A stretch of DNA of 21,907 nt, taken from positions 1 through 21,907 of the IMG/VR virus record IMGVR_UViG_3300044796_000298; one strand, given 5' to 3'. Positions 2,511 through 20,564 of this stretch are shown piece by piece (within the stretch, counting starts at the first letter, position 1; the number at the start of each line of letters is the position of its first letter). A model generated the notes under the pieces. That model made no database searches and was not told where the DNA came from. It saw nothing but the letters and a program-made list of their open reading frames with translations. A program made the position numbers and the translations under genes. The DNA is from a virus.

Positions 2511-4187
2511 CTAGTTATTTTGATTGGTGAGTGAGAAGTCCCCGGCACTAAGATCGTTAAAATACTGTTGAATTAGCTTAAATGTTACGCTTACGCCAGT
2601 ATCAAAATCCATCATTGATGTGGATATTGGATTTTGTGCTAATGATGCCGATTTTAAATCTGATCTCTCTTTTAGTCTCGCGAACGCACGCTGATCTATA
2701 AGACCAAGTAATGAATTTATTGGCATGACCCACAGTGTAGATTGTATAGATAGAACGTCCAGAACGCCGAGACCGCTGAATTCTCCCATAATAATTTCTA
2801 TTGTTTTCAGTGAGTCAATTGCCTCGTTGCCAATACTATTGCGAATATTATTTAGTTTATCTATTAGATCTGTATATGATTTTGATGATACCTTTAAACC
2901 ATCAAATACCGTATCATCAAGATTTGAGAACGCAAAATCACCAGGATCTGTCATTCCGGACAATCCAACATCGAATTGAGCCTGATCAATGTAATTTCTT
3001 GTCATAGCATCTAGAATATCTAGCTCATAATTTGGATTTCTCGATTGGTAGTCTGCATTACGATTACCATCATTTATAACTGGATTAAGTGTAGCACCGG
3101 CCTCTGGGCCGGATTGTGGATTGGGAACAGGTTGCCAATTCATATTGGTAGATACTTCTTTAATATTGTCAATTGAATCGTGTAATTTTTTAATGATGGC
3201 TCTCATCAATCTAAAATATCTTTGAAAAATCATTATCTCTGATGAATAGTATTGTTTTTGGCTGGTCGAAAACTGCAACAATCCCTGATCTGTTATTGCT
3301 TGATTGCTTTGAATACTTGTAGATAGACTGTCAATAAATGACTGTGTGCTTGCTTGATTATTATTTGCATTATTTGAATTAAGTGAATTACTTAATCTTG
3401 TAGTTATTACTCTTTCTATATATGGTCTTTTTAAATATGTTGATCCTCCATTTGGATTATCAATTATTTTTGTTTGTGATTTATCATAGAGAAATGGAGC
3501 ACAGATATTATTCTTGGTTGGCACTACGGCAGATGCTATTCTTGGATCGACGATGAACGGCCGCAAATAATGCTTTGATCTTAGGAGAGTAGTAGTGTCT
3601 CCACCGTTAATTTGGGTAATTTCATCGCTATAAAAACGTTCTATATATGCGATACGATCGTCTATTGTCTGTTCTTGACCCTTATCAATTGCCGGGAAAA
3701 CAATATTATCTGTAAGTTGTTTTTCAAAAGATCGTATGAACACCGATCCTATTGCAAGTGCGACAGCATTAAGAGTCTGAGCTGACCATATGGGCGTATA
3801 ATATTTTTGTGTATTGTTTTCTCTTACATCTAATTGTGTTGATGTAAAGTTTGTGTTAGCTATAATGGCATTTGCAATATTGGTATATTTTGCCTGCGAG
3901 GTCTTATCAAGATTTAAATTTGGATCATATCCTGGGCTATAAAATCCTGACAGATCTGTGGCCACGACGGGTAGTCCAGTCATACGATAAAAAGCATTTA
4001 CACGTGATTCTTGTGGATTAGCGCCGAGATAGCTACGATTTTGATCAATTGGGGTTATAAGATTTGTATATAGTTCATCGATATCTATGTTTAAAATATC
4101 TTGATCATCATAAAATTGCGCCTGATGTGGAATTGGTCCTGTTGGATTTGGTGCCGCGGCATCGGCACTGGTGATTATTACCGGCAT
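2511..4187 (-). CDS. Unassigned 558-aa baseplate-region protein
   Basis: I do not recognise a family. The ATG at 4187 lies three bases after the stop of the preceding gene, with a GGAGAGG ribosome binding site inside the end of that gene, which suggests translational coupling. The N-terminal 60 residues are acidic and polar. An Asn-rich linker lies near residues 266-283. A basic, helix-prone stretch with RYFRLMRAIIKKLHDSI follows near residues 318-335. A hydrophobic segment, GVLDVLSIQSTLWVMPINSLLGLI, sits near residues 476-500. There is no signal peptide and no enzyme motif I can name. Its place between the spike/membrane-like genes and the gp25-like wedge gene makes a baseplate structural role likely, perhaps wedge-to-hub linkage; this is inference from position only. 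Confidence 0.6.
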   Translation of the reverse strand: MPVIITSADAAAPNPTGPIPHQAQFYDDQDILNIDIDELYTNLITPIDQNRSYLGANPQESRVNAFYRMTGLPVVATDLSGFYSPGYDPNLNLDKTSQAKYTNIANAIIANTNFTSTQLDVRENNTQKYYTPIWSAQTLNAVALAIGSVFIRSFEKQLTDNIVFPAIDKGQEQTIDDRIAYIERFYSDEITQINGGDTTTLLRSKHYLRPFIVDPRIASAVVPTKNNICAPFLYDKSQTKIIDNPNGGSTYLKRPYIERVITTRLSNSLNSNNANNNQASTQSFIDSLSTSIQSNQAITDQGLLQFSTSQKQYYSSEIMIFQRYFRLMRAIIKKLHDSIDNIKEVSTNMNWQPVPNPQSGPEAGATLNPVINDGNRNADYQSRNPNYELDILDAMTRNYIDQAQFDVGLSGMTDPGDFAFSNLDDTVFDGLKVSSKSYTDLIDKLNNIRNSIGNEAIDSLKTIEIIMGEFSGLGVLDVLSIQSTLWVMPINSLLGLIDQRAFARLKERSDLKSASLAQNPISTSMMDFDTGVSVTFKLIQQYFNDLSAGDFSLTNQNN

Positions 4188-4190
4188 ATG

Positions 4191-6299
4191 TTATACCTCT
4201 CCGTCTCTCGCCACATCGCCCGCGTCGCGTCGTGGTTCGCCAATTGGTATGGCTGGTGCTTCTACGAATGTGTATGATAGAATATCGATAGATATCGATG
4301 GTGTCTCGTCAATAGATGGTGGGTTGTTAAGTGTGCTTACATATGTATTGTTGAATGCTACTTTAATTGTTCCGTTTCCTGGCTTGTCGGTTGTAATGAA
4401 CGCATTGTATAGTCCATATCCATCATATATGAATGGTGAGATTTCGCCGAGAGATATTACTCCGGTTAAATTCTGAGCAACAGCTGCTCCGACATTCGCT
4501 GGAAGATTTGCTGATGTGTTCTGCCCAGAGTTTTCATTAATGGTAACGCTTAAGGTTATCGGTTGTGTTGTAAATTGAATTGATGTGTCTAACTCAAATG
4601 AACTTTCATATTGGTTATATCCCGCGCCTATTACACCCGTGAGGCAGGCAGATGCCTGATCCTGCAATGTTGATAGACAAGCAAGTATGTTGTTTTGCAG
4701 CTCATTAGCTGTGTCCAAAGACATGTTATTTCTGAAATTAGCAACATTGTCAGCGATACAGCTTTGAGCAGCAGCTACATCTGGTAGTGGAGCTATAGCA
4801 AGAGCATTGGCAAGATTCACGCCTGCCGAATTAAACAATCCGCCTAGTGTGGTGTTGATGAAATCTCGATTTACAGCTACCGTTGGCATACACCCTATCG
4901 TTATGAGTGGAAGAAGTGCGCCTGGGTTGATGTTGAATGTGTAAGTGAGATCTGAATAGAGTACGCCATCGGGCACCAAAATACCCGTTTCAATAGTTGG
5001 TATGTGGAATACGTCATCTATACGCGCCGTGTTCCCACTCGCCGTGACGATCGGAGTAGTACCATCGTCTTCTGTAATTGTGCCACCTACGAGATTTAAT
5101 GTTCCGTCGAATGGAGCTACAAGATTGCCGTTATATGAAGCGACACCTTTTGTAGGTGGCGCCTTTACTATGGCGTTAGTTATTCGTATATATCGTGGAA
5201 GGCCAGATATTATGTTTCCATATAAAAAAGGATCATAGAACAAGCGAAAGTTTATTGTATATGGGACGTTTGTAGGATCTGTGTTGTCATCATAGGTTGC
5301 TCCGCTTGGGAAAAATACGGTATTATTTCCTGATGGAAGATCGAAGGCGTGAGTGATATTATAGAATTGTTGATCCTGGGCAAGATTAGGATCATAAAAC
5401 TGCCAGCTTTCCTGGCGTATTGCTGATAGATTTGCAAATAGCGATGATGGAAACGCGCTTAAACTAGGTGGTACTGGTAATCCTACTTGCGGTAGATACT
5501 GAAAAAACCCAGTGCTACTTGTTATACCATCTGTTGAATTATTTTTGATGAACGCAGGACAGACATCCGTAGTACAGCAGCCATCAGCGCCTCCTTCCGA
5601 TGAGCTGCAAGGAGGGATGTCGAAGCCCAGTCCAAGCATACCCTTGATTAACTGAACGATTAATAGAATAACACCAAATATAACAAACAAATCTTGTAGC
5701 AGACATAGCAAATCTCCTACCTTCTTTGTTATGGCAATAATACTACTATTGTCCAAACGCTTCACCGCAGCAGCCAGCATTTTTATGTTTTTGATTATTG
5801 TTGCAATGATATTGAGTATTCTCTGAATAATGTATTCAACGAGAGCAATAATCAACAGTATCAATGCTATAATGATCAGTATTAATGCCAAGAATGGAAA
5901 TAGTGAGAAGAACTCGGGCAAGCATACCCTGAATAGTCTTGATATTGCTCTTGGTAGCTTAATTGGGTTTGGTATTGCACATAAAACTTCTATAATACAT
6001 AGAATCAAATTTAGAACAGGTAAGAAAAACTTGTATAGCATTAAAAATGGCATACATTGTTCTAGTAGTGATAAGAATGCGCTAAATGGTTTATTGAACA
6101 CATCTGAATCAAGATTTGGTTTCAGTAATCCAGATGGTAATGCAAAATTTAAACTGTTGAACAGTCCGGTGAGATCTGGCAACGGTATTGGTGGAAACTG
6201 AATATTTAAAGATGGTAATGTGGGTGCAAAACCAGTGATTCCGGCAGGTGGTGCTGGCGGATGAAAATTTGAATCATTTAATGGTTGGCAGGGGCACAT
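4191..6299 (-). CDS. Baseplate-operon protein with multiple predicted transmembrane segments
   Basis: This 702-aa protein has three visible zones. Residues 1-70 are Pro-rich and start with a CPC motif. Residues about 83-226 contain at least three long hydrophobic segments (about 83-108, 131-157 and 198-225), with a further amphipathic helix at about 158-178. The second includes LALILIIIALILLIIALVEY. A cysteine cluster follows (Cys 231, 241, 242, 247), and the remaining 450 residues look like soluble beta-rich domains. No typical N-terminal signal peptide is present. The ATG is preceded by a weak AAGAG, and the gene begins 27 bases after the spike gene. Membrane-spanning proteins are unusual among baseplate components. 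It may be carried in the baseplate and enter the host inner membrane during DNA delivery, but that is inference; the family is unknown to me. Confidence 0.75.
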   Translation of the reverse strand: MCPCQPLNDSNFHPPAPPAGITGFAPTLPSLNIQFPPIPLPDLTGLFNSLNFALPSGLLKPNLDSDVFNKPFSAFLSLLEQCMPFLMLYKFFLPVLNLILCIIEVLCAIPNPIKLPRAISRLFRVCLPEFFSLFPFLALILIIIALILLIIALVEYIIQRILNIIATIIKNIKMLAAAVKRLDNSSIIAITKKVGDLLCLLQDLFVIFGVILLIVQLIKGMLGLGFDIPPCSSSEGGADGCCTTDVCPAFIKNNSTDGITSSTGFFQYLPQVGLPVPPSLSAFPSSLFANLSAIRQESWQFYDPNLAQDQQFYNITHAFDLPSGNNTVFFPSGATYDDNTDPTNVPYTINFRLFYDPFLYGNIISGLPRYIRITNAIVKAPPTKGVASYNGNLVAPFDGTLNLVGGTITEDDGTTPIVTASGNTARIDDVFHIPTIETGILVPDGVLYSDLTYTFNINPGALLPLITIGCMPTVAVNRDFINTTLGGLFNSAGVNLANALAIAPLPDVAAAQSCIADNVANFRNNMSLDTANELQNNILACLSTLQDQASACLTGVIGAGYNQYESSFELDTSIQFTTQPITLSVTINENSGQNTSANLPANVGAAVAQNLTGVISLGEISPFIYDGYGLYNAFITTDKPGNGTIKVAFNNTYVSTLNNPPSIDETPSISIDILSYTFVEAPAIPIGEPRRDAGDVARDGEV

Positions 6300-8397: not shown

Positions 8398-11300
8398 TTA
8401 TGATGTTCCGGCTGGATTATCGGTATTTGTGTATACTATCCAACAATCTACCATTGCTCCATATATCATAGCATCTATGATTAGTTGTTGCGCATTTTCT
8501 GTTGGTTCGGCAGCGGCATTTTGTGTATTGCTTTTTGTTGGTGATGTGCTTGTTATCATAGATGGGCCACCTGCTTTATTTATAGCATCTCTTGCATAAT
8601 AGAATGCATCCGCAGACGGATAACGATACTCTCCGGCATTTGTCGATGATGAATCGACTGCTACAACCTTAATTTGTGCTTTATATCGTTCTAATGTTTG
8701 TGGGTTATTTGTAGTATTTGCTGTTGGCTGTGCATTATTGGCTAGTGATGTAGACCCAATTAAAAATTGCTGTACGGCGTATGCTAGTGAAAATGCGTAA
8801 TCATTAACATCGTTAAAGCTTGAAAATGTGGGTGATGAATTATAAAATACCCTTAATTCTAAAATAGGTAAATAATTACCAGATGCTGCACTTAGTGCGC
8901 CAGCTGCCTGCTGGAAAATTTTATTCAGCGTATCTGTGTTGCTAGTTGCATATTGGCCACTTACAATATCTTGCAAAACATTGCTGGAGGCGGCTGTTTG
9001 ATTGTTAATGTTTCCAATAATTGTTCCAATATGTTCTTGATTGAATGAATTTCCCTGTTTATGATGAACAAAATTAGTTACATCTTTGTTTTTATACAAC
9101 AACTTACCAATAACATCAAATGGTGTTGGTATGTATTCTCCCGCATTGTGCCCATAGGACAGATTTATTGAAGTCGAATATGTGCTACCAAATGTAAAAT
9201 CGTGACTTACACTTTCTACATAGAATAACTGATCAAGATGCTCAATGTATATAACTTCGCCAGGCTGTTGGTACTCATTGCCAACGATTGTTAGGTTGCC
9301 GGATAGTACGCTTTTTCTTGCTTTGTTAAGTAGTGATACGGCATAAGGGGCGAGTTGTCCCTCTGGATCGGTTAGGAATGGAGCTTTAATTTGTACCGGT
9401 AATGATATTCCATACATTCTCCACAAATCATAATCGACAGCGCCAGCAGTAGATAGGGCATTTCCATTTTGAAAGATTGTAAGATCTGACGGTAGCGAGT
9501 TATTTAAGAATTGATCTCCATAGCTTCCAGTTACATATATTGATGTATATTCTGGACGTTTTTCTGTTATTGTTTCACTAATAATATTTACATCGTTGAC
9601 GATATACCTTGCCCCTGAACCAGGTCCAAGATCATCATATGATTCATCTTCTATGAGATGTTCAAACATTTGTGGTATTGTTTTGGAATTGTTAAGATTT
9701 GGAAGCAATATATTGTTTGTTGTATTATTATTTTGTGTATCAAGTGATACGCTTTCTTGTAGGTTTCTTAAGGCGTTTGCTGCGCTTTTTATAGCTGATT
9801 GTCTGCTGGCAATTCGTTGAGCTATTCCATTCAAGATAATTAATAGATTTGTACTTGATATTGGGGGTGTTAGTTGATTCGTACCAAATAGTTGTGTTAC
9901 ATCAAACGGTACGCCTGTTGATGCTTGTAATCGTGTGTTAACTGTTTGATATCTATTTTGTAAGGATGCCTGTAATGTGACTGTTGGTAACTGCTCAAAC
10001 TCACCTTTATAATTTGATGTTGATGTAGATGGAGCATTTGCTTGTAGCAGCCAAGTTATGCGACCGATATCAAATGTGTTTTTTAAATTTGACTGATTGC
10101 TTAGTGATGTTCCATTGCTCGTTCCATTCAATGCGTTGTTTATTGCACTGAGAACATCGTCAGGATTTGAGGTTTGCACAATGTATCTTAGATCTTGTCC
10201 ATCTACCTTTCCTGATGCTGGATTTGATAGGAATGAAAATATGCTAGTGTTAGAACCTACATTTGTGATTGGTAATGATCCTCCGGTACTGCTTATAAAA
10301 CCAACACAATCTGAATCATCCGCGTACCCAGCTGCCCAACAATATAGTCTTATCTCATCTTCTATATTTCCTATTTGTCCTAGCAGTGTATCTAGCTGAT
10401 TTGTATAAAGATCTTCTATAAATTGTGGAAATACTTGTACGCCTGTTTCATTTTTTGTTTTCAGCATATTATAGAATACAGAACTTGGCATTTTATTATA
10501 CTGATGATTTCTGATTTCTATGTGACCTTGACTATTTGCAAATACTTCTAGATCTAATATTTGAGAAACTGTTCTAATTTGATCAGATACAGTCGTATAT
10601 TCACTATCAAAAAGTTGCATATTTCTAAATGATTTTTCAAATGCTTGTATATCAGAATCTTTATCATAGGCATCATCGACTATCACCAGATTAAGATCTT
10701 CATTAGCTCTTACTTTATATATTAATCTACGTGTAAGAAAATTTAATTGTCTTCTTAGATCTTTCCGTAAATTTGGGTCATTGCTCGTCTTACTTCCCAC
10801 TACTAGATTTGGGCTATAATCAAATGATATATCATTACCATATAAGCTAACTGGTGAATTAATTGAATTAAGGGCAGCTGTTATACTGTTAATCTTTGCG
10901 GCAATTAGTGTATCAAGATTTGATACTTGTTGCTTGGCTAAACTTACAGCAATAGATACATCGGATGAATTTCCAGTAGTTGCCGATTGATTACCTGTTA
11001 GCGATGATAGTTGATTTGTTGCGTTGGCTCTTTGAGATAGAAGATCATTTAAATCTTGATCGAAATTTTGTGCCGCAAGTTGATTATTTAACATACTAGC
11101 ATATGTTTTTTCATCTATTGTTAGTTTTTTGAATGGTATGAAATTTCCATATATAAAGTTTCTTGTCTTAAGACTTGTTTCAAGTCCACGAAAATATGAT
11201 GTTGAGGCGTCTTGTCCAGTTGTCTGATCTCTTGCCTGTCCGTCAAATTGTGTCGCTGCTTTGTAAAATGTGGCATAATTGTATGGCTGTCCAGTTATCA

Positions 11301-13323
11301 GAAGCGATAGAACATTTACTACGTCTTGTCCAGCATATGGATCATTTGTAATTGCCGGGGCAGCCTGACCAGATTGATCCGAATATGAATCACCAAATAA
11401 CACCAGCGTCCCTATGCCTTCCTTCCATCGATATACGAAACCATCAGGATCGTAAAAGACACGATTTACGTTAGTGCTTTGTACGCGTTGTTGATCTTGG
11501 TTAAGAAAACTATTTTCAGTTGGTACTTGACCGGCTAAGGTTCCATTTTTGTTCTTCACGAAAGCCGATTGAAATATTCCCTTATTTTCTGGCAATAGCT
11601 CGGGAGTACTATTCGTTTGAACGCCCGTTGCTGTATCAAATTGAATATCAAATGGTGTTAGTGGATCATAGAGCGCACCATTAAATACGTCTACCGATGG
11701 TTTTAAGTTAACGGCTCCATAATCAAAGTATCCGGTGTTATCGACACCATTCACGCTTACACTATTAAATCCCTTATCAAATCTTGACGTTGCTTCATTT
11801 ACAATTCCAGCAAATACGTGGCAACCTTTGTCTGTTGATACGAATTTGTTGCGCATAGATTGCCAAATCCAGTTTGGAAAATCACTACCAACAAAAAATG
11901 CCTTTTCTACCGATGAGCTGTTATCTACATTGAGATATTGAGTTAGACTTGTTAATGTTGTCTGCAAACCCTGCATCCACGTTAATCCAGAGAATGAGCT
12001 TTGCAGGCCGCTATTAACTTTATTATCCTGCTTTGTTTGCGACTTAATGAATATATTGACAGTATCCATAGGCTGAATAATAAGCTTACCCGAGTAATGA
12101 AGACGAAGTTTGTTTCGCACATATTTGAGATCTGTATTGCTCTGACGAGACGTTCTCCGTGAGTTGCTGGATACGGTCATCTGTGTAAATAAACTCTCAA
12201 CAATAGCATTGAATAGTTTTACTTCTGATGAGCTTAAACCTTGATTACCAAGAGTTATGCTGCCTTTTAATGCTGATGGATCGATTGATACGGATGTGGC
12301 CGATCCTGTGAACTGTATTTCATAGCCGAGATCATCGATGATTGCCCTTACACGTTTCCCTAGATATGTGTATGGATCAACAATGAAGGATATGGAACTG
12401 GCCCCACGACCATTACGAGAAAGCGTAAGTTCTCTTTTACGATCCGATATTAGTTCGTCGAGTGATTGGATACCGAGCTGCACGAATTGGTTCTGATATA
12501 GAATATTGTTGGCATCATATAGGGCTTGATCTATATCATTTGGTGTTATTCTCATAAACTGATAAGGATCGGATATTGTTAGCAAGAACTGTCCGCCACC
12601 GAAATGAACAGATGAGGTAGTATTAACACTTCTCACGGTTGTTAGTTCTATTACGCCCGTTCCCTCTCCAAATGTTGAGCGAAAGCTATTGGGTATATTG
12701 GTTATCCACGATGTTGTCAGATTGTCCTTTGACATTGCAACAACTTCCCTTACTCTATTTACAATACTTGTGAATTGTGATAGTGATGTATTGATTGAAG
12801 TTTGTAGCCCTGCCGCGCCGAATGCCCCAGGCAGGTTATTGATATTATCTGTAAGGTTAAATATCATACCAAGCAAGCTGTCGTCTACACCACCAACAAC
12901 CTCTGATATTTGTGCGATCTTTACAAGCTTTTCATAGTCAGATATCTGCTTGCATTTATTTTGGAATAATGTCTTAGTTGCCTTATAGAAGAGACGATCC
13001 TGATCATCCATAAGATCTGGACGAAAATTATCAGCTAATGAACCAAAAGCTCGCTTCTTAATAAAGACAGTAATGTCTGGATCTTGCATTAGAACATTCA
13101 GGATATCTGGTTTCGGAGCAAAAAAGTTGGGTCGCCGATAACCTTGTTCATAGTAGCTACGATCTGCGGTTTGATCAAACTGATTGGCAAAATCTCCAAG
13201 CTGGCCATACTTTTGTGTTGTACCATTCTGAACTATATCTAGACTTGCGTTCTTGTTTTCGCTCAAATTGAATTGCTGCGAAAGTATCGATCCAAGTCCC
13301 GTTAATGTATCATTTGTAGACAT
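8398..13323 (-). CDS. Very large baseplate hub protein, gp27/gpD-like C-terminal part
   Basis: At 1641 aa this is the longest gene here and about four times the length of T4 gp27 or P2 gpD. Near residues 1335-1410 it contains LTIVGNEYQQPGEVIYIE, then LFYVESVSHDFTFG, then LSYGHNAGEY. This 'G-N-x-PG-d-v-x-i ... y-V-x-s-V-x-H-x-f ... l-x-Y-G' order is the closing domain of late-control-D/gp27 hub proteins. Earlier parts include a tube-like stretch around 240-300 and a LIIQPMDTVNIFIKSQ segment near residue 400. The middle, about 700-900, is rich in Gln, Asn and Ser and looks helical. Residues beyond about 1420 form an extra C-terminal extension. The hub joins the tail tube to the spike, and the spike gene follows by one base. 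No protease, lysozyme or glycosidase motif was recognised, so the added mass is unexplained. Confidence 0.75.
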   Translation of the reverse strand: MSTNDTLTGLGSILSQQFNLSENKNASLDIVQNGTTQKYGQLGDFANQFDQTADRSYYEQGYRRPNFFAPKPDILNVLMQDPDITVFIKKRAFGSLADNFRPDLMDDQDRLFYKATKTLFQNKCKQISDYEKLVKIAQISEVVGGVDDSLLGMIFNLTDNINNLPGAFGAAGLQTSINTSLSQFTSIVNRVREVVAMSKDNLTTSWITNIPNSFRSTFGEGTGVIELTTVRSVNTTSSVHFGGGQFLLTISDPYQFMRITPNDIDQALYDANNILYQNQFVQLGIQSLDELISDRKRELTLSRNGRGASSISFIVDPYTYLGKRVRAIIDDLGYEIQFTGSATSVSIDPSALKGSITLGNQGLSSSEVKLFNAIVESLFTQMTVSSNSRRTSRQSNTDLKYVRNKLRLHYSGKLIIQPMDTVNIFIKSQTKQDNKVNSGLQSSFSGLTWMQGLQTTLTSLTQYLNVDNSSSVEKAFFVGSDFPNWIWQSMRNKFVSTDKGCHVFAGIVNEATSRFDKGFNSVSVNGVDNTGYFDYGAVNLKPSVDVFNGALYDPLTPFDIQFDTATGVQTNSTPELLPENKGIFQSAFVKNKNGTLAGQVPTENSFLNQDQQRVQSTNVNRVFYDPDGFVYRWKEGIGTLVLFGDSYSDQSGQAAPAITNDPYAGQDVVNVLSLLITGQPYNYATFYKAATQFDGQARDQTTGQDASTSYFRGLETSLKTRNFIYGNFIPFKKLTIDEKTYASMLNNQLAAQNFDQDLNDLLSQRANATNQLSSLTGNQSATTGNSSDVSIAVSLAKQQVSNLDTLIAAKINSITAALNSINSPVSLYGNDISFDYSPNLVVGSKTSNDPNLRKDLRRQLNFLTRRLIYKVRANEDLNLVIVDDAYDKDSDIQAFEKSFRNMQLFDSEYTTVSDQIRTVSQILDLEVFANSQGHIEIRNHQYNKMPSSVFYNMLKTKNETGVQVFPQFIEDLYTNQLDTLLGQIGNIEDEIRLYCWAAGYADDSDCVGFISSTGGSLPITNVGSNTSIFSFLSNPASGKVDGQDLRYIVQTSNPDDVLSAINNALNGTSNGTSLSNQSNLKNTFDIGRITWLLQANAPSTSTSNYKGEFEQLPTVTLQASLQNRYQTVNTRLQASTGVPFDVTQLFGTNQLTPPISSTNLLIILNGIAQRIASRQSAIKSAANALRNLQESVSLDTQNNNTTNNILLPNLNNSKTIPQMFEHLIEDESYDDLGPGSGARYIVNDVNIISETITEKRPEYTSIYVTGSYGDQFLNNSLPSDLTIFQNGNALSTAGAVDYDLWRMYGISLPVQIKAPFLTDPEGQLAPYAVSLLNKARKSVLSGNLTIVGNEYQQPGEVIYIEHLDQLFYVESVSHDFTFGSTYSTSINLSYGHNAGEYIPTPFDVIGKLLYKNKDVTNFVHHKQGNSFNQEHIGTIIGNINNQTAASSNVLQDIVSGQYATSNTDTLNKIFQQAAGALSAASGNYLPILELRVFYNSSPTFSSFNDVNDYAFSLAYAVQQFLIGSTSLANNAQPTANTTNNPQTLERYKAQIKVVAVDSSSTNAGEYRYPSADAFYYARDAINKAGGPSMITSTSPTKSNTQNAAAEPTENAQQLIIDAMIYGAMVDCWIVYTNTDNPAGTS

Positions 13324-13328
13324 TTATC

Positions 13329-14168
13329 TTACGTTCCACTTGTTGCACCTACGAATGTGAGAGGAGGGCCACCAAGACCATTATTGCTTGGTCCATTAAT
13401 TGCACTGTGTTGCCACGCGAATTCATTTGTTCTATATCCACGTCGTTGCGTTACTGTGAATTGAATTTTGTAATCGAATAATCCGAGTCGATCGACGCTT
13501 TCGGTGAATGAAAATGAATTGAAGTATCCACGGAATACCCAACCAGTGTAATATAATTCTATACCAAGGGCAAGAGACGCCAATGATTGGATATTTTGTG
13601 GTAGAATATTTTGACTTGATGGATCTAGGCCGAGAAGACCAGAGGTGGCATTTGCAATTGATGTATTGAGTCCTGTAAGATTACCAAGTGCATTATTGAC
13701 AGCGTCCCCTACTCCGCTGATGGAGTTTGATGCTGCTAGCGTGAGACCAATCGGATCGAACGTATACTGCTCAGATCTATATATCTCATAAAGAACATTA
13801 AGCCCCTCAACTCCTGAGCTACCTGTATGTCCGTTAATTGACAGTGTCATTAGTTCTTCGCCCCAATATTGGACAACGAATCCACCTTTTGTGAGTTCTT
13901 TGTTAATGATCTTTGATGTGCTGTAATCAACATTCTGAGGATTGATATACATATTAATCACGCCAACCTCTGGAACGAACCAATGCATTATGTTTCGTTG
14001 AACTTGACCAGTAAGTTGGCTTGGAGTTTTGCTCGATGGCAAACCACTTCCATCTGCACTTGGGATTGGAGCAACACCGAATCCAGAAGATTTAAATGGC
14101 GGAGTACTTATCGAGCTTGTGGCGCTGGTAAAAGCATTTGTCTGTGTGAATGCGTTAAGTAATGACAT
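13329..14168 (-). CDS. Tail tube/baseplate adaptor candidate (279 aa)
   Basis: The start codon overlaps the tape measure stop by one base (TAATG), and AGGAA lies upstream, so coupled translation is likely. The first 55 residues are a flexible Ser/Pro/Gly-rich arm. Residues 60-135 (INPQNVDYSTSK, then TKGGFVVQYWGEELMTLSIN and a Gly/Thr loop) and 200-250 (YYTGWVFRGYFNSFSFTES, then FDYKIQFTVTQRR) form two strand-rich halves separated by a low-complexity Asn/Ser/Leu insert. A split two-sheet pattern placed between tape measure and hub suits a tube-like adaptor, the role of T4 gp48/gp54 or Bacillus XkdP-type proteins. The structural role is likely; the precise homologue is inferred from position. 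Confidence 0.6.
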   Translation of the reverse strand: MSLLNAFTQTNAFTSATSSISTPPFKSSGFGVAPIPSADGSGLPSSKTPSQLTGQVQRNIMHWFVPEVGVINMYINPQNVDYSTSKIINKELTKGGFVVQYWGEELMTLSINGHTGSSGVEGLNVLYEIYRSEQYTFDPIGLTLAASNSISGVGDAVNNALGNLTGLNTSIANATSGLLGLDPSSQNILPQNIQSLASLALGIELYYTGWVFRGYFNSFSFTESVDRLGLFDYKIQFTVTQRRGYRTNEFAWQHSAINGPSNNGLGGPPLTFVGATSGT

Positions 14169-16294
14169 TATTTCCTGGGGACCATAGATGGAGCTTGCAC
14201 AAGTTGATTATGTGTTAACATTTGTGCCTTGACGTTGGACGAGTGGCTTGAGGCTACTACATCGAAACCTTCTGGGGCAATTACTTTAATGCTTAGATTG
14301 ACGTTTTGGGCACCGTGTGGCATCGTAGCGTGCCCTGCTGGAATGGTGTGCTCACGCATTAAAGGGTGAGCCATCTGCTGTGCGCCTGGGTGTTGATGTG
14401 CAGCCATTGATCGTTCAAGAACGCGTGTACCCGCCCCTCTTGCTGTTGCGTGAGCACCCATCATATCACGATCGTGAGTGGTGGAAGACTTCAAATAATC
14501 TATTCCTTTTTCTGCTGCCTTCTTTGCCGCTGCGGCCTGTATAACTGTATTTACGGCGAAAGCAGCCGCACCTGCGGCTCCTTGCTTGGCTATTTCTTTA
14601 TGTGGATCGTGTTCCATTTTTGCACCAACAACCTTTGCCTGATCTCGTGCGTTCCCCGTAGCCATATCAGCTTCTTGTGCATTCATTGCGGCAGCCAGAA
14701 CATTCTTATTTCCACCAAGTTCTTTCACATCAATGCCAGCTGTCAATGCTGTTGCTACTGCGATATCATTGAGAGAATTCATCATACTTTTGAACGTGTT
14801 TGAATTATTCTGTTGAATCTGATTGCCTTTTTCGACAACTGTATCAAGTCCTTTCTTTCCGGATAGTTCCGTGAATGCTTTTGTATCACGCGTTTTAAGC
14901 GCCTCAAGTATACGCGTTGCTTGATCGTCTGGGGTTCCCTTACCAATTCCAAATACACCTTGCTGAAGCATCATCCTTTGCTTCATAAACTGAGCTGCGG
15001 CTTGTGGGCTTTCTGCTGCTTCTTTTAGCCCTATGATTGGCCCGCCCATTTTTTGACGCATAACACGCTCAGTCATCTGCATTACTTGATCTGTTTTTCC
15101 TTCACGTATCATTTGTTCAATCTTGAATGCACCCTGCAAACCACCAGGACCACCTGACTGTGATGATATGTATGCCTTTTGTGCAACAGTTAGTCCGGCC
15201 ACTTGTTTAATCATATCGCCGGTCAATTCTGTTGCAGCTTTTGATGTGAGCCCAGTATCCTGTAATGCTCCACTATATCTTCCCAAGATTGTCGCAGCCG
15301 CTGCTGTGTTATCTCCTGTGAATTTGAAAGTCCCTGCGACATTATTCATGAGGGTTTGAACATCTTGAAATCTAAGACCAAGCTCATTAGCTGCATTAGA
15401 CATGGTTGCAAAGAACTCAACTCCTCTTTGTGCGGACTGCTCACTTGTCAATTTGCCGTGAGCATTAGCCAAGTCTTCGAATGCAGTTGTCAGCTCTTTG
15501 GTAACGGTTTCCATGCCTTGTCCTGAACCCATCATAAGCTTCATCGCGGTCGTAAGTCCATCAATTTGTGTTGTGGAGCCTTGACCAGATGTTATGATGC
15601 TCTTCATAAATCCAGGAATGGTTCCAAGCATAGCAGCATATCCATATACCGCCTTTGTGTCTTGACCAGTAGCCGCCGCTGACTTATCTACAAAGTCCGT
15701 GAATTGAGCAGTTAATGAAGACATGTCCTTTAGCTTGTTATTAGCGAACAGTTCATTCATAGTCCCCGTTGCTGCCGATAGCGCAATGTATGAATTGGTT
15801 AACTTTTCTGATGCTGCCGCATTATCGAGAAAAGTCTTAAACCCTTTGATGAAGGAGTCAGGAATTTTGAGTTTCGTCATTACTGATGCAAGCTCATCCA
15901 TATGAGTATTGACAGCATTAATGGACGCTTCTCCTGCTACCGTGAACTTATCAAATGTATCTGTTTTGATTGTTACGGCGCCAACATTCATAAGTGTTCT
16001 GGTTAGCTTATCAACACCCATAGTGGCATCTTCAGCACCTTTGATCATTCCAGAAAAACTCTTGTTGCTGATATTCGACATCGCACCAATCATATTTGAT
16101 ATGGAGCTTGTGTAATCATCCATAGCCTCAGAAGCATCGTCCGTTGATGCCGTTGCCTGTTTTCCGAAATCAACGATGCGATTAATAACATTAGTCATAC
16201 TACCAGCGACCAGACCCATTGCGGACTGCAAGGTATTTGCACTCTTTGTGGCATTATCTAGACTATTAGTATCAACATTATCATCAATCGCCAT
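14168..16294 (-). CDS. Tail tape measure protein
   Basis: This 708-aa, mostly helical protein directly follows the frameshifted chaperone pair, the usual place of the tape measure gene in tailed phages. It is rich in Ala, Met, Thr and Ser with few aromatics, and has long helix-prone stretches (about 1-330). TAGGA precedes the ATG by a few bases. Tape measure proteins fill the tube and set its length; at about 1.5 angstrom per residue, 708 residues suggests a tail near 105 nm, an estimate only. Residues 572-590 form an Ala-rich uncharged stretch that might be a weak membrane segment. Residues 606-663 contain eight histidines, then a strand-rich C-terminal end. I see no lysozyme or peptidase domain. 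The call rests on composition and gene order, since the family is poorly conserved. Confidence 0.75.
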   Translation of the reverse strand: MAIDDNVDTNSLDNATKSANTLQSAMGLVAGSMTNVINRIVDFGKQATASTDDASEAMDDYTSSISNMIGAMSNISNKSFSGMIKGAEDATMGVDKLTRTLMNVGAVTIKTDTFDKFTVAGEASINAVNTHMDELASVMTKLKIPDSFIKGFKTFLDNAAASEKLTNSYIALSAATGTMNELFANNKLKDMSSLTAQFTDFVDKSAAATGQDTKAVYGYAAMLGTIPGFMKSIITSGQGSTTQIDGLTTAMKLMMGSGQGMETVTKELTTAFEDLANAHGKLTSEQSAQRGVEFFATMSNAANELGLRFQDVQTLMNNVAGTFKFTGDNTAAAATILGRYSGALQDTGLTSKAATELTGDMIKQVAGLTVAQKAYISSQSGGPGGLQGAFKIEQMIREGKTDQVMQMTERVMRQKMGGPIIGLKEAAESPQAAAQFMKQRMMLQQGVFGIGKGTPDDQATRILEALKTRDTKAFTELSGKKGLDTVVEKGNQIQQNNSNTFKSMMNSLNDIAVATALTAGIDVKELGGNKNVLAAAMNAQEADMATGNARDQAKVVGAKMEHDPHKEIAKQGAAGAAAFAVNTVIQAAAAKKAAEKGIDYLKSSTTHDRDMMGAHATARGAGTRVLERSMAAHQHPGAQQMAHPLMREHTIPAGHATMPHGAQNVNLSIKVIAPEGFDVVASSHSSNVKAQMLTHNQLVQAPSMVPRK

Positions 16295-16298
16295 TGTC

Positions 16299-16658
16299 CT
16301 ATCCCGTTATTTTACGCTTACGTTTTTTCTTGCCATTGCCTTTTTGCGCCTCTTCCCTCTTTTGCTGATTGCTTGCCACGATTCTCTTCATAAGATCATC
16401 TGACTCTTCAGTTGTTGAGGCGTGCTGCTTAACTCCGACACCCAGCATCTTTTGTACGGCTTCTGGATTGATAAATGATCCAACGAGATATCCTTGATTT
16501 TCCAACAATTTATATTCATCAGAATAGTCTTCAATCCAATTATGAAACATCCAGGCTTTCATTATAGGATCCATCTCTTCAATTTCTGGGTCATCAGGGA
16601 GCTTCTGAAAAGTTTTGCACAGGAACCATAAAAACCTATGGTCTGGCTCCTTTACTAT
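16299..16658 (-). CDS. Frameshift extension of the tail assembly chaperone (GT-type C-terminal part)
   Basis: In the -1 frame the sequence is open from the slippery site to a TAG at 16299. Read through, it adds 119 residues to the 202-aa short form and gives a 321-aa protein. The first 28 added residues (starting IVKEPDHRFLWFLCKTFQ) look like real protein, with aromatic and charged residues in a helix-like pattern continuing smoothly into MDPIMKAWMFHNWIEDY. The C-terminus is Lys/Arg-rich. An ATG at 16574 could start a separate 91-aa protein, but its upstream sequence is only a weak, close-spaced GAAGAG, and it would lose the coding-like part. As with lambda gpG/gpGT, the long form would recruit the tape measure protein. 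The stop lies four bases before the tape measure ATG. Confidence 0.8.
   Translation of the reverse strand: MVKEPDHRFLWFLCKTFQKLPDDPEIEEMDPIMKAWMFHNWIEDYSDEYKLLENQGYLVGSFINPEAVQKMLGVGVKQHASTTEESDDLMKRIVASNQQKREEAQKGNGKKKRKRKITG
16622..16650 (-). promoter_or_regulatory. Candidate frameshift-stimulating RNA hairpin
   Basis: On the coding strand ACCATA (16642-16637) pairs with TATGGT (16630-16625) around a six-base loop. The stem continues as GGA (16650-16648) with TCC (16624-16622) after a five-base bulge. It begins seven bases beyond the slippery heptamer, within the usual 5-9 base spacing for -1 frameshift stimulators. An alternative 6-bp pairing of GGAGCC with GGTTCC (one G-U) uses the same segment. 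The stem is modest, so its effect is inferred. Confidence 0.5.
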
Positions 16659-17263
16659 TTTTTTAGATCTTCAACGACCTCCTTGGCTTGTTCCGCTGAT
16701 GCGATGCCATATTTATTCTGTGCTTCTTCTTTGAGTGAATTGAATTCTGAGAATAGTTTGTTAACTACTATGTCTTCAAGGTTGTCGTCAATCCAAGATA
16801 GCTTGCTTGCCATATCTGATGCGCCTATGACATCATTTACAGAATGCCCATCGATCTGATAGATCGAGCGAGCTAACTGCTGACGACGTGCCTCATAAGA
16901 GGCCTCAAGCTGAGTATCGACTGATGAGAATGTGGCGAGAGCAGCTTCACGGGCTTCTTTTGCTTTAAGTGTGCGAATGGTAAATGTGTGATCTCCCATT
17001 TTAACATCTCTTGTCATTCGACCAATGTTTGATAGGATTTCTATTCTTTTCTTAGCGTCTGGATTGATGCGAGCCCCACCATTCACGATCTCTTGGTTTT
17101 TGACTTCACGCGCTTCTCGAATAGACTTTTCTGCATCAAGCTGAGCGTCAAATTGTGCAGATGGCTGCGCGCCTGAGGACTGCTCAGGTTCGCCGATATT
17201 AAATTCCCTCATTTGTGGGTTTGGTGTTGTTTTGCTAAATTGGGAAGAAGAAAAAGTAGCCAT
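16655..17263 (-). CDS. Tail assembly chaperone, short form (G-type)
   Basis: This 202-aa protein ends ...EDLKK at the A-AAA-AAA slippery site, with its TAG directly after. Residues 1-70 are polar and disordered-looking. Residues 72-195 contain a strand pair (RDVKMGDHTFTIRTLKAKEA) and then helices, with SIYQIDGHSVNDVIG between them; this suits the short chaperone encoded before the tape measure gene in many siphoviruses and myoviruses. Its role there is to coat the tape measure protein and help start tube polymerisation. The ATG at 17263 has AAAGG about ten bases upstream and follows the terminator region, so this gene is probably the first of the downstream transcript or is reached by read-through. 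Function is supported by position and the frameshift, not by a recognised sequence family. Confidence 0.75.
   Translation of the reverse strand: MATFSSSQFSKTTPNPQMREFNIGEPEQSSGAQPSAQFDAQLDAEKSIREAREVKNQEIVNGGARINPDAKKRIEILSNIGRMTRDVKMGDHTFTIRTLKAKEAREAALATFSSVDTQLEASYEARRQQLARSIYQIDGHSVNDVIGASDMASKLSWIDDNLEDIVVNKLFSEFNSLKEEAQNKYGIASAEQAKEVVEDLKK
16658..16664 (-). other. Programmed -1 ribosomal frameshift slippery site
   Basis: On the coding strand seven A's lie in the phase C-TA AAA AAA TAG, giving the canonical A-AAA-AAA heptamer with the zero-frame stop right after it. Slippage by one base makes the next codon ATA, starting at 16658, in the frame of the downstream extension. A stop codon just 3' of the site and a hairpin beyond it are typical of functional sites. 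Confidence 0.8.
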
Positions 17264-17406: not shown

Positions 17407-18033
17407 TTACTCGAATACTGCGGAGATTACGCCTGGAGCCGTTAATGCTCCTCGATAAACTCCGGTATCGGTAAGCTGTTCAATCGAATTCGTCTGAAGG
17501 TTGAACCCACGCGGGCCAGAAGAGGCTGCCGAAGCGCCGCTCTGAAGATTGCTGAAGATGGCCTCTGCAACCCAGCTCATATCGTCAACGATAAGGTAGT
17601 TATCCTGTCGGTATGCCCAGCTAATCTTCTGTATCCATACATTCTGGATTGTTGTGATTACTGTATTTGCCCCGTCTCCTGCTGTCTGATCGAGGATGAC
17701 GATATCGAATGGAATTCGCTGAGCTGCAACGTGAAGGAAGTCTCTACTAAAAGCCTCTGTCACTGTTAATAGGTCATAACGAATGCGTTGGCAATCTCCA
17801 CTTATGTCAGTTGCCTTGGTTGGCGCTGAATCGATGTGGCCAGCTGTTCCAACTTCATCGATCATCGTAATGGTTGCCTGCTCATTGATGGATAGGGTCT
17901 GGATGGCGCCGATGGGGGTGCCATTGACCTGTATGATGATGTTGGTAGATAGCGAAGATCCTGTTCTATCTACTGTCGTACCAGAAGCATTATTTATAAT
18001 GCTTCCGGTTTGTGGTGTTAAAAGTCCGGCCAT
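17407..18033 (-). CDS. Tail tube protein
   Basis: This 208-aa protein follows the sheath gene by 35 bases and is closed by a strong terminator, the standard place of the myovirus tube gene. It has a strong ribosome binding site (GGAG, nine bases before the ATG). Its N-terminal 30 residues are a polar arm. The rest alternates short strands, including TNIIIQVNGTPIGAIQTLSI, then RIPFDIVILDQT and TIQNVWIQKISWAYRQDN, consistent with the tube beta-barrel fold. T4 gp19 is 163 aa and other myovirus tubes are of comparable size. The protein would polymerise into the rigid inner tube through which the DNA leaves. Codons look more GC-rich than in the baseplate genes. The call is from position, size and strand pattern. 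Confidence 0.8.
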   Translation of the reverse strand: MAGLLTPQTGSIINNASGTTVDRTGSSLSTNIIIQVNGTPIGAIQTLSINEQATITMIDEVGTAGHIDSAPTKATDISGDCQRIRYDLLTVTEAFSRDFLHVAAQRIPFDIVILDQTAGDGANTVITTIQNVWIQKISWAYRQDNYLIVDDMSWVAEAIFSNLQSGASAASSGPRGFNLQTNSIEQLTDTGVYRGALTAPGVISAVFE

Positions 18034-18068: not shown

Positions 18069-20564
18069 TTAGCTACCAATTACGCCTACTCCAACCGTGA
18101 CGTAGATCCAGTTGACTGGGTATACTGGTTGAACAAGAACGGTTATGTTATACTGACGAGGATCTACGCTGTCCTGAGCAATGTTCAGGTTAGCAAAGTT
18201 TGTTATGAGTCCCTGTGAGATGAATGACTTCAACATCGACAGTGCCCTTGCGCTCATATTTGTGATTACATTTGGGTATCCTGGCTGACCTATGAAGCCA
18301 GCAAGTCCAGCTCTGAACTCCTTCGCGATTGTATCGCGAATGAATACAATTGATATTTCCTGCTCTTCCGGTGCACCGCTGTCTGTCGTTGTAAGTCCCC
18401 ATACAACAAGGCCTCCTCCACTCACCGGCTGAAGTGCAGTGACACCAGCAGCAGCGAGATTCTGATAGACAGTTGGGCTAAACTGACGATTCGATAGAAT
18501 CGAGAATCCACTGAGAACCTTATTGGTGAGAGGCATTGCAACGTTTGGAACACCAGCTACGTAGCCAGCAGCCGCAGCTGCAATATAGAAACCATCGAGC
18601 GTTTCGTTATCTGCGCCAACCTGAACCATAATCTGATCTGGGAAGAAGTATACACATCGATATGTATCACTATATGCACCATTTGGGGCTGTACCACCTA
18701 CGGCATAGTTGGTAAGGTCTTCTGTATTACCAGCAAGAACCTCCGCAACAGTATTGCCCTGGATCCCTTCCAATACACCTATATTTTCAACTGCGGCGGG
18801 CTGCGCTCCAGTTAGATTTGCTGGAGTGAGTCCATTGATTGCTCCAATGAATGCAACGCGTTCCTTTCTGTTTCTTATGTTGCTCATTGCAATGCAATGA
18901 TTGACTGTGTTTTGGAATATGACGGATATTGTTTCGAGTGGAAGTGGAACAATGATATCAACTTCCTGTGTTTCAAGAACGCTGAGAGCCGTTTCCCAAC
19001 CTGCGTCGAAGAACCCAGCATCACGCTCATCGACAAGAGTAATGCGTAAGCTATTGCCGTTTGGAACGATATTGTGATTAAGAACCAGGTAGAAACCTTG
19101 CGCTGTTGGATCCTGAACTTCGAACTTGATGTTCGTATCTGTCACAGAGGATGGTATGGTGATAACCAAGTTACCGTTAATAACCGCAGTTATTGGGAAT
19201 GTTCCAATGTTAGCATTGTGATTTGAATCAATGATTTTAACATTTAATCCAACATAACTGGAGTTGAACTCTCCAACACCTACGCTACTAAAGTATGCAT
19301 TCGAGCCGTTGATTGTATTAAGATAACCATCTGTGCCGAAATTCAGTGTCTCTACGCTTTGGATGACAGAGTATGAGTATGAATTTCCGCCTGGGAATTC
19401 GGTGTTATCAAATACAAACTCATCGACAGTTGGCTGACCAACAGTTCCGAGTGTATAGAAGGGGAACATATTTGGTAGAAGCTGTGTTTCTACGTTTGTT
19501 GTTGGATTGGTGACGAAGATGTGTATCGCATCTCCCGTAGCTGGTTGAACACCGATTGGTAGAGGCAACACGAAATCATTGTAGTTTGTCGATAGTGCGT
19601 TGAAATTTGATTCAAGCTCAATTGAGGTTCTACGTGGTAGCGAAGGGGCCGCCTGAAGTGCCATTACGCCTGGTGTATTATTTTCAAAAGCTAGCTGAGC
19701 GCCGAGCGATAGAACGTTGGTAAGACTAACTGGTCCAGTCATAGATGTCAGACTTGACATATCGGTAAAGAACGTTGGGTTATTGATATTTCCAACTGGA
19801 ATAAATGTGGCGGTGAGCGTATCGCCTTTGCTGAGGACACCGCTATACACCTCTACTGTAAAGTAGTCGCCTGGATTGAATGGAACAGTATCAAACAAAG
19901 AGAAGCTGAGAATACCATTTGATACAACTACGCCATTAGATACCCATACAACCGAATCACCATAACCATCAAGAACATTTCCTGAGACTGAACCGAAGGC
20001 AATAAAGGAGGCGGAATTAACGATTGGCTGATTCGAGGCATTTCGCGCAACACTTACACACTTGATGGTCCAAGTTTCCTTTGGGGCATTGATATCAACA
20101 AGAGATAGATTCGAGATGTAGCCATCGCCGATGTTCGTCGCGCCGCTCGTATAGCTTGACCCACCCTGATTGATGATGTAAGCAGATTGTAGCTCTATAT
20201 CACCTGTTGTGTAGTCTATGCAATAGTCGTAATCATCGCTGAATACACCGTTTGTTGGAATGAAATCCTGCTCTAATCCTACCAGCGTTACGCCATTCTT
20301 GAAAAGTTGAGTTCTGTTTTCAACCAGTGGAGCTTGCGATATCTGAAAATATCTTCCGACTGCACCATTTGTTGATGTAAAAGTGGGATTTAAACCATCT
20401 TGGCCACCGCCGAGGGCAGAAGCTACGATGATTTGATTTGTCGATCCCTCACCAATGATGCAGGGAACTAATATTCCGCCAGGAACATTTGCTCCAGTGC
20501 TTTGGGTTTCCACATTCGTGTAAACGCCGGGAGTGACATTATTTGCACCTGGTATGTTGCTCAT
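18069..20564 (-). CDS. Contractile tail sheath protein
   Basis: This 831-aa protein starts with TPGVYTNVET at residues 11-20, the usual 'PGVY' opening of phage sheaths. It ends with a typical sheath C-terminal domain, about residues 560-831: RNRKERVAFIGA, MPLTNKVLSGFSILSNRQ, GVTALQPVSGGGLVVWGLTT, then VFIRDTIAKEFRAGLAGFIG. These parts form the conserved inner core with the arms that link subunits. The middle, about 150-540, is a long Ser/Thr/Asn-rich insert that would be exposed on the tail surface and explains why it exceeds T4 gp18 (659 aa). AAGGA precedes the ATG. The sheath contracts to drive the tube and spike through the cell envelope. The family call is firm; the insert's function is unknown. 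Confidence 0.95.
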   Translation of the reverse strand: MSNIPGANNVTPGVYTNVETQSTGANVPGGILVPCIIGEGSTNQIIVASALGGGQDGLNPTFTSTNGAVGRYFQISQAPLVENRTQLFKNGVTLVGLEQDFIPTNGVFSDDYDYCIDYTTGDIELQSAYIINQGGSSYTSGATNIGDGYISNLSLVDINAPKETWTIKCVSVARNASNQPIVNSASFIAFGSVSGNVLDGYGDSVVWVSNGVVVSNGILSFSLFDTVPFNPGDYFTVEVYSGVLSKGDTLTATFIPVGNINNPTFFTDMSSLTSMTGPVSLTNVLSLGAQLAFENNTPGVMALQAAPSLPRRTSIELESNFNALSTNYNDFVLPLPIGVQPATGDAIHIFVTNPTTNVETQLLPNMFPFYTLGTVGQPTVDEFVFDNTEFPGGNSYSYSVIQSVETLNFGTDGYLNTINGSNAYFSSVGVGEFNSSYVGLNVKIIDSNHNANIGTFPITAVINGNLVITIPSSVTDTNIKFEVQDPTAQGFYLVLNHNIVPNGNSLRITLVDERDAGFFDAGWETALSVLETQEVDIIVPLPLETISVIFQNTVNHCIAMSNIRNRKERVAFIGAINGLTPANLTGAQPAAVENIGVLEGIQGNTVAEVLAGNTEDLTNYAVGGTAPNGAYSDTYRCVYFFPDQIMVQVGADNETLDGFYIAAAAAGYVAGVPNVAMPLTNKVLSGFSILSNRQFSPTVYQNLAAAGVTALQPVSGGGLVVWGLTTTDSGAPEEQEISIVFIRDTIAKEFRAGLAGFIGQPGYPNVITNMSARALSMLKSFISQGLITNFANLNIAQDSVDPRQYNITVLVQPVYPVNWIYVTVGVGVIGS

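Follow-up and report, generated by a model that had tools for sequence, protein, structure and literature searches.

Programmed −1 frameshifting in tail assembly chaperone genes is well known in tailed phages, and Xu, Hendrix and Duda reportedly found in 2004 that it is general among the dsDNA phages. In phage lambda, the slip site is GGGAAAG, and a −1 shift ahead of the tape measure gene gives the fused form gpGT alongside the short form gpG. The G protein coats the tape-measure protein, and GT recruits tail-tube subunits (PMC5009743). The distance from slip site to zero-frame stop averages 26 nt in the SEA-PHAGES collection and 36 nt in the Xu set (PMC10885494). Bacillus phage G (NC_023719) carries gp181 and gp182, whose halves are homologous to those described below and occupy the same place between the tail structural genes and the tape measure gene; in the existing record, gp182 is a joined CDS described as a two-piece tail assembly chaperone. 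In the unrelated dnaX gene of E. coli, the frameshift signal consists of an upstream Shine-Dalgarno (SD) motif, an A-rich heptamer and a downstream hairpin (PMC3711429).

The locus analyzed here lies in a part of the window (the whole 21,907-nt stretch of viral DNA that was studied) where all genes are on the minus strand. It is like lambda gpG/gpGT in gene order, in the −1 direction of the shift, in pairing a short with a fused form, and in its position before the tape measure gene. The G-like ORF, corresponding to the putative short form of the chaperone, spans 202 codons plus TAG (16655..17263, minus strand) and ends in GTC GTT GAA GAT CTA AAA AAA TAG TAA. This places seven consecutive A's (A7; 16658..16664, minus strand) in the phase N NNA AAA AAA T, forming the slippery heptamer A_AAA_AAA, which is read in the zero frame as CTA AAA AAA. 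The TAG (16655..16657, minus strand) adjoins the A-run and is followed by an in-frame TAA. From the slip site, the −1 frame continues without interruption to a stop at 16299..16301 and encodes a T-like domain of 120 residues, counted from the re-read lysine that it shares with G (16299..16661, minus strand). Between the slip site and the first ATG lies a bridge of 28 codons (16575..16658, minus strand) encoding IVKEPDHRFLWFLCKTFQKLPDDPEIEE, and the predicted G-T fusion is 321 residues long. The original prediction, made from this DNA alone, had reported the in-phase heptamer at the end of the 202-codon frame, an open −1 frame with 28 residues before its first ATG, and a zero-frame stop directly on the slip site, and we confirmed all three from the sequence. 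About 40 in-phase heptamers of the form X XXY YYZ occur in the genes of the window, and A7 is the only one that combines a gene end with a long, conserved −1 ORF. Across the window (1-21907) there is strong avoidance of A7/T7 runs: the slip-site A7 is the single run on both strands of the 21.9 kb, against 11.4 expected.

Immediately downstream of T is a 708-aa ORF (14168..16294, minus strand) that is presumed from its position to encode the tape-measure protein. Upstream of G are a presumed tail tube gene (208 aa; 17407..18033, minus strand), assigned by position and a weak PHROG match only, and a tail sheath gene (831 aa; 18069..20564, minus strand). The sheath protein matches a PHROG tail sheath family (E = 1.4e-14), falls below the cut-off for Pfam Phage_sheath_1, and has a tblastn match to gp178 of Bacillus phage G. 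We conclude, with a probability of roughly 93%, that the locus is one gene with two tail chaperone products, a G-like short form and a GT-like fusion made by −1 frameshifting with help from an internal SD motif and, probably, a hairpin.

The original prediction had suggested aligning relatives as a check on whether the heptamer and the open −1 frame are conserved. Our survey set comprised 64 non-redundant IMG/VR loci, the window counted in, on contigs of up to 447 kb. Both features are kept in 63 of the 64 loci, each of which has exactly seven A's in the same phase and the T domain in the −1 frame. The codon before the A-run in these 63 loci specifies Leu, Ile or Val and has A as its third base, which contributes to the heptamer. 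One of the initial search patterns had taken in the first lysine of T, and the search was therefore repeated with patterns that start downstream and do not touch the slip site. This independent search recovered A7 in phase in 21 of 21 further contigs, a few of which are near-duplicates of one another or of earlier loci. The one family member without A7 is L006, a 4 kb contig that reads CTG AAC AAA AGT AGT TAA at 3686-3706; its T domain falls in the +1 frame, and its SD motif stays in register. L006 may have switched the direction of the shift, to a +1 or −2 site, or may reflect an assembly error or indel. Among annotated phages there was no DNA-level match to the locus and no tblastn match to either half, the contigs of GTDB genomes contained no relative, and an Rfam search returned no match. 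The lineage is large, and its members are uncultivated and often giant phages.

The position of the zero-frame stop is also constrained. It adjoins A7 in 55 of the 63 loci and follows one codon later in the other 8, which corresponds to a slip-to-stop distance of 0 or 3 nt, in contrast to the averages of 26 and 36 nt in the two phage sets cited above; this departure is testable. Isoleucine is encoded by ATA at this point in 55/63 loci, compared to a background of 33%, and this choice keeps the stop against the A-run. The adjoining stop is enforced by codon choice. The slip site of phage G, TTA AAA AAC TAG, also has an adjoining stop, though its heptamer is A_AAA_AAC rather than A_AAA_AAA.

Upstream of the slip site we found AAGGAGGT (16684..16677, minus strand), a perfect 8-nt complement of the anti-SD sequence whose GGAGG core ends 13 nt 5' of A7. 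GGAGG occurs at exactly this place in 32 of 63 relatives, compared to 0.04% per position elsewhere in the gene, and SD matches of at least 7 nt are found at the motif in 31/63 loci and in about 0% elsewhere in the gene. Such matches are also commoner here than ahead of the true gene starts, those of G and the tape measure gene, whose SDs are weaker. With the anti-SD sequence of the host assumed, the predicted pairing with the 16S rRNA tail peaks at the motif, at a mean of −9.4 kcal/mol. The glutamate codon within the SD site is GAG in 47 loci and GAA in 8, against a background of 27% GAG (p ~ 1e-19), and the codon preceding it ends in AG in 39 loci and in AA in 18, against 27% (p = 8e-11); both p-values treat related sequences as independent and are consequently too small, a limitation that does not affect the contrast with the neighboring glutamate codon three codons further on, which is GAA in 42 loci and GAG in only 3. 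Because of this contrast in codon choice, the constraint must act on the RNA, beyond the amino acids. Judged from these sequence patterns, the internal SD at its fixed distance is the upstream stimulatory element of the frameshift signal. It is also the strongest conserved stimulator, and it corrects the original prediction, which overlooked it. We considered internal initiation from this motif and rejected it. The first sense codon of the −1 frame past the shift is 19 nt away from the motif, the family conserves no start codon at that place, and many loci, among them the window, have the −1 frame blocked a few codons before the A-run is reached. The corresponding spacing in dnaX is about 10 nt, and phage G has only the SD-like stretch AAAGGA upstream of its slip site.

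The original prediction had also reported a hairpin starting seven bases downstream. A hairpin is indeed predicted 6-7 nt 3' of the A-run in the window (16617..16655, main stem approximately 16651..16621, minus strand), with a folding energy of −16.6 kcal/mol that corresponds to z = −2.2 against dinucleotide shuffles and z = −2.6 against synonymous-codon shuffles, but it shows no covariation across relatives. The 44 nt past the slip site on average fold more stably than expected, with a mean z of −0.70 ± 0.17 across the family, with 24 of 63 loci below −1 (synonymous-codon shuffles), whereas three control stretches of T gave +0.19, −0.28 and −0.02 with the same shuffles. RNAalifold found no consensus structure downstream of the slip site in the family, and pair counts in the obvious stem did not exceed those of shuffles. 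We therefore rejected a common hairpin as a family-wide element. The hairpin in this phage is likely a helper rather than a defining element, and across relatives no other reported element is as weak. With an SD, a slippery run and, in a subset that includes the window, a 3' hairpin, the signal is therefore dnaX-like. It differs from dnaX in its heptamer (A_AAA_AAA rather than A_AAA_AAG), in the lack of a strong conserved hairpin, and in the gene that it serves.

According to our preferred reading, most ribosomes would stop at the TAG beside the A-run and release the 202-codon, G-like chaperone. A minority would slip back one base, with lysine tRNAs on A_AAA_AAA, and continue through the bridge to complete the GT-like fusion; this step assumes the set of lysine tRNAs in the host. 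Pausing would be aided by pairing of the internal SD with 16S rRNA 13 nt upstream, again with the host's anti-SD assumed, and in this phage also by the 3' hairpin. If the lambda pair gpG/gpGT is a guide, the G part would hold the tape-measure protein encoded by the next gene, and the T part would recruit tail-tube subunits. We infer the occurrence, the efficiency and the ribosomal nature of the slippage, as well as this division of labor between G and T. One published observation counts against the explanation, namely that A_AAA_AAA shifts more weakly than A_AAA_AAG in E. coli (PMC5009743).

Nearly all members of the lineage, and phage G as well, have the stop adjoining the slip site. We therefore also considered a termination-coupled variant in which the ribosome, kept in place by the internal SD, would slip with the stop codon still unread in its A site. 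We regard this variant as unlikely. If it were true, then the ratio of G to GT would depend on the release-factor activity of the host. The G stops of the family are TAA in 44 loci, TAG in 20 and TGA in none, and TAG is rare as a stop of T or of the tape measure gene. Most of this pattern follows from the Ile-Val codons of the −1 frame, ATA GTN. One consequence of the absence of TGA is that RF1 could read every G stop in the family.

Slippage could in principle be transcriptional rather than ribosomal, with RNA polymerase producing mRNAs that carry one extra A at the A-run and are then read straight through. A homopolymer of seven A's is compatible with such a mechanism, and one inserted A would give exactly the frame of T. 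Productive slippage by bacterial polymerase has been described on runs of about nine (PMC5009743), however, and the run is exactly seven in 63 family members and in the 21 extra contigs. Moreover, ribosomal slippage leads one to expect both an in-phase heptamer and an SD at a constant spacing, neither of which plays a part in slippage by polymerase. With no run longer than seven and an SD whose constant position would serve no purpose, we consider polymerase slippage quite improbable.

The bridge is coding sequence. Between the window and its 70% relative, L001, there are 11 nucleotide differences in the bridge, 9 of which fall at third positions, and the encoded protein is identical; the 28 residues, which the original prediction had described as coding-like, thus behave as such. 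Across the family, the −1 frame of the bridge shows differences of 0.21 per site at first, 0.11 at second and 0.45 at third codon positions. Column entropy in the family alignment is lower for the bridge than for the rest of T, which places it among the most conserved parts of T, and AlphaFold models it as a confident helix of the T fold (pLDDT ~95). This substitution pattern indicates that the bridge is under protein-level constraint in the −1 frame. It counts against the alternative that the locus is two separate genes, in which T would start at the ATG at 16574 by re-initiation or translational coupling and the overlap would be incidental. That codon is Met in 89% of relatives, and gene callers starting from it would give a 91-aa ORF. 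Yet the 28 codons before it are at least as conserved as the remainder of T, several relatives have no ATG there, and no SD precedes it in 61 of 64 loci, whereas the starts of G and the tape measure gene mostly have one. Separate genes would also leave the conservation of the heptamer and the internal SD unexplained, and we find this arrangement very improbable. As the original prediction anticipated, default annotation would split the locus, and pipelines calling two genes would drop the 28-residue bridge in every member of the lineage. A sequencing or assembly error that splits one continuous gene has a negligible chance of being correct: homopolymers are error-prone, but the split falls at the same base in over 80 independent contigs drawn from different metagenomes, the adjacent stop is enforced by codon choice, and the complete genome of Bacillus phage G has the same arrangement.

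Both halves are also related to annotated tail assembly chaperones by profile and by predicted structure. The AlphaFold model of G has a mean pLDDT of 83 (~95 over residues 81-180), and its Foldseek matches include Bacillus phage G Gp181 (E = 1.5e-7), Gp182 and the chaperone of Rhodococcus phage Finch (2e-5). Against the PDB, the HK97 tail assembly chaperone 2ob9 was the second match (probability 0.91, E = 0.1). The T model (pLDDT 83) has phage G Gp182 as its top match (probability 1.00, E = 0.02), and tail proteins from SPO1-type phages come next. Profile comparison with hhalign related G to gp181 (96.8%, E = 2.7e-10) and T to the −1-frame region of gp182 (94.5%, E = 8e-8). PHROG tail assembly chaperone matches reach 6e-7 for G and 2.7e-5 for T among family members, whereas the window's own halves have weak direct matches (E ~ 0.004-0.02). 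Searches of solved-structure sequences with the G or T alignment gave nothing meaningful, and a match of G to the Pfam poxvirus Bcl-2-like family was below cut-off and was dismissed as chance. The synteny sheath-tube-G-T-tape measure extends across the family: a tube and/or sheath homologue lies upstream in 52 of 52 relatives with room for it, and a tape-measure homologue lies directly downstream of T in 58 relatives, and in 56 of the 57 with room for it, with full-length next ORFs of 644-837 aa. Phage G differs in that its T domain is about twice as long and its tape measure gene measures 8.7 kb, compared to 2.1 kb here. Together, the conservation of heptamer, phase, bridge and synteny and the fold and profile matches of both halves support the originally proposed G/GT-type pair ahead of the tape measure gene. 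We counted the +1 frame of L006, the lack of hairpin covariation and the weak direct PHROG matches against the frameshift explanation.

In the tail-chaperone literature that we searched, drawn largely from non-subscription journals, we found neither a family-wide internal SD nor the site of this lineage described. On the sequences surveyed, three things are new: the lineage itself, a conserved SD at a tail-chaperone slip site, and a stop placed strictly 0 or 3 nt after the slip site. A large, uncultivated lineage of often giant phages would thereby join the known users of tail-chaperone frameshifting, and codon choice alone shows that an internal SD stimulator has been retained at constant spacing from the slip site.

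Three minor observations concern annotation in and around these loci. Of 54 members, 18 have a match between the T domain (window 16302-16661) and phrog_1316, a family labeled "RNA polymerase beta subunit". That label looks mistaken, and phrog_1316 may be a tail chaperone family. In L005, a 224-aa ORF with paired-cysteine motifs and no Pfam match is located between sheath and tube (3890-4564) and by eye looks like an HNH/homing endonuclease. Finally, the run of large unassigned genes downstream of the tape measure gene in the window includes one of 1641 aa (8398-13323), also without a Pfam match, which judging by its position probably encodes a baseplate or hub protein.
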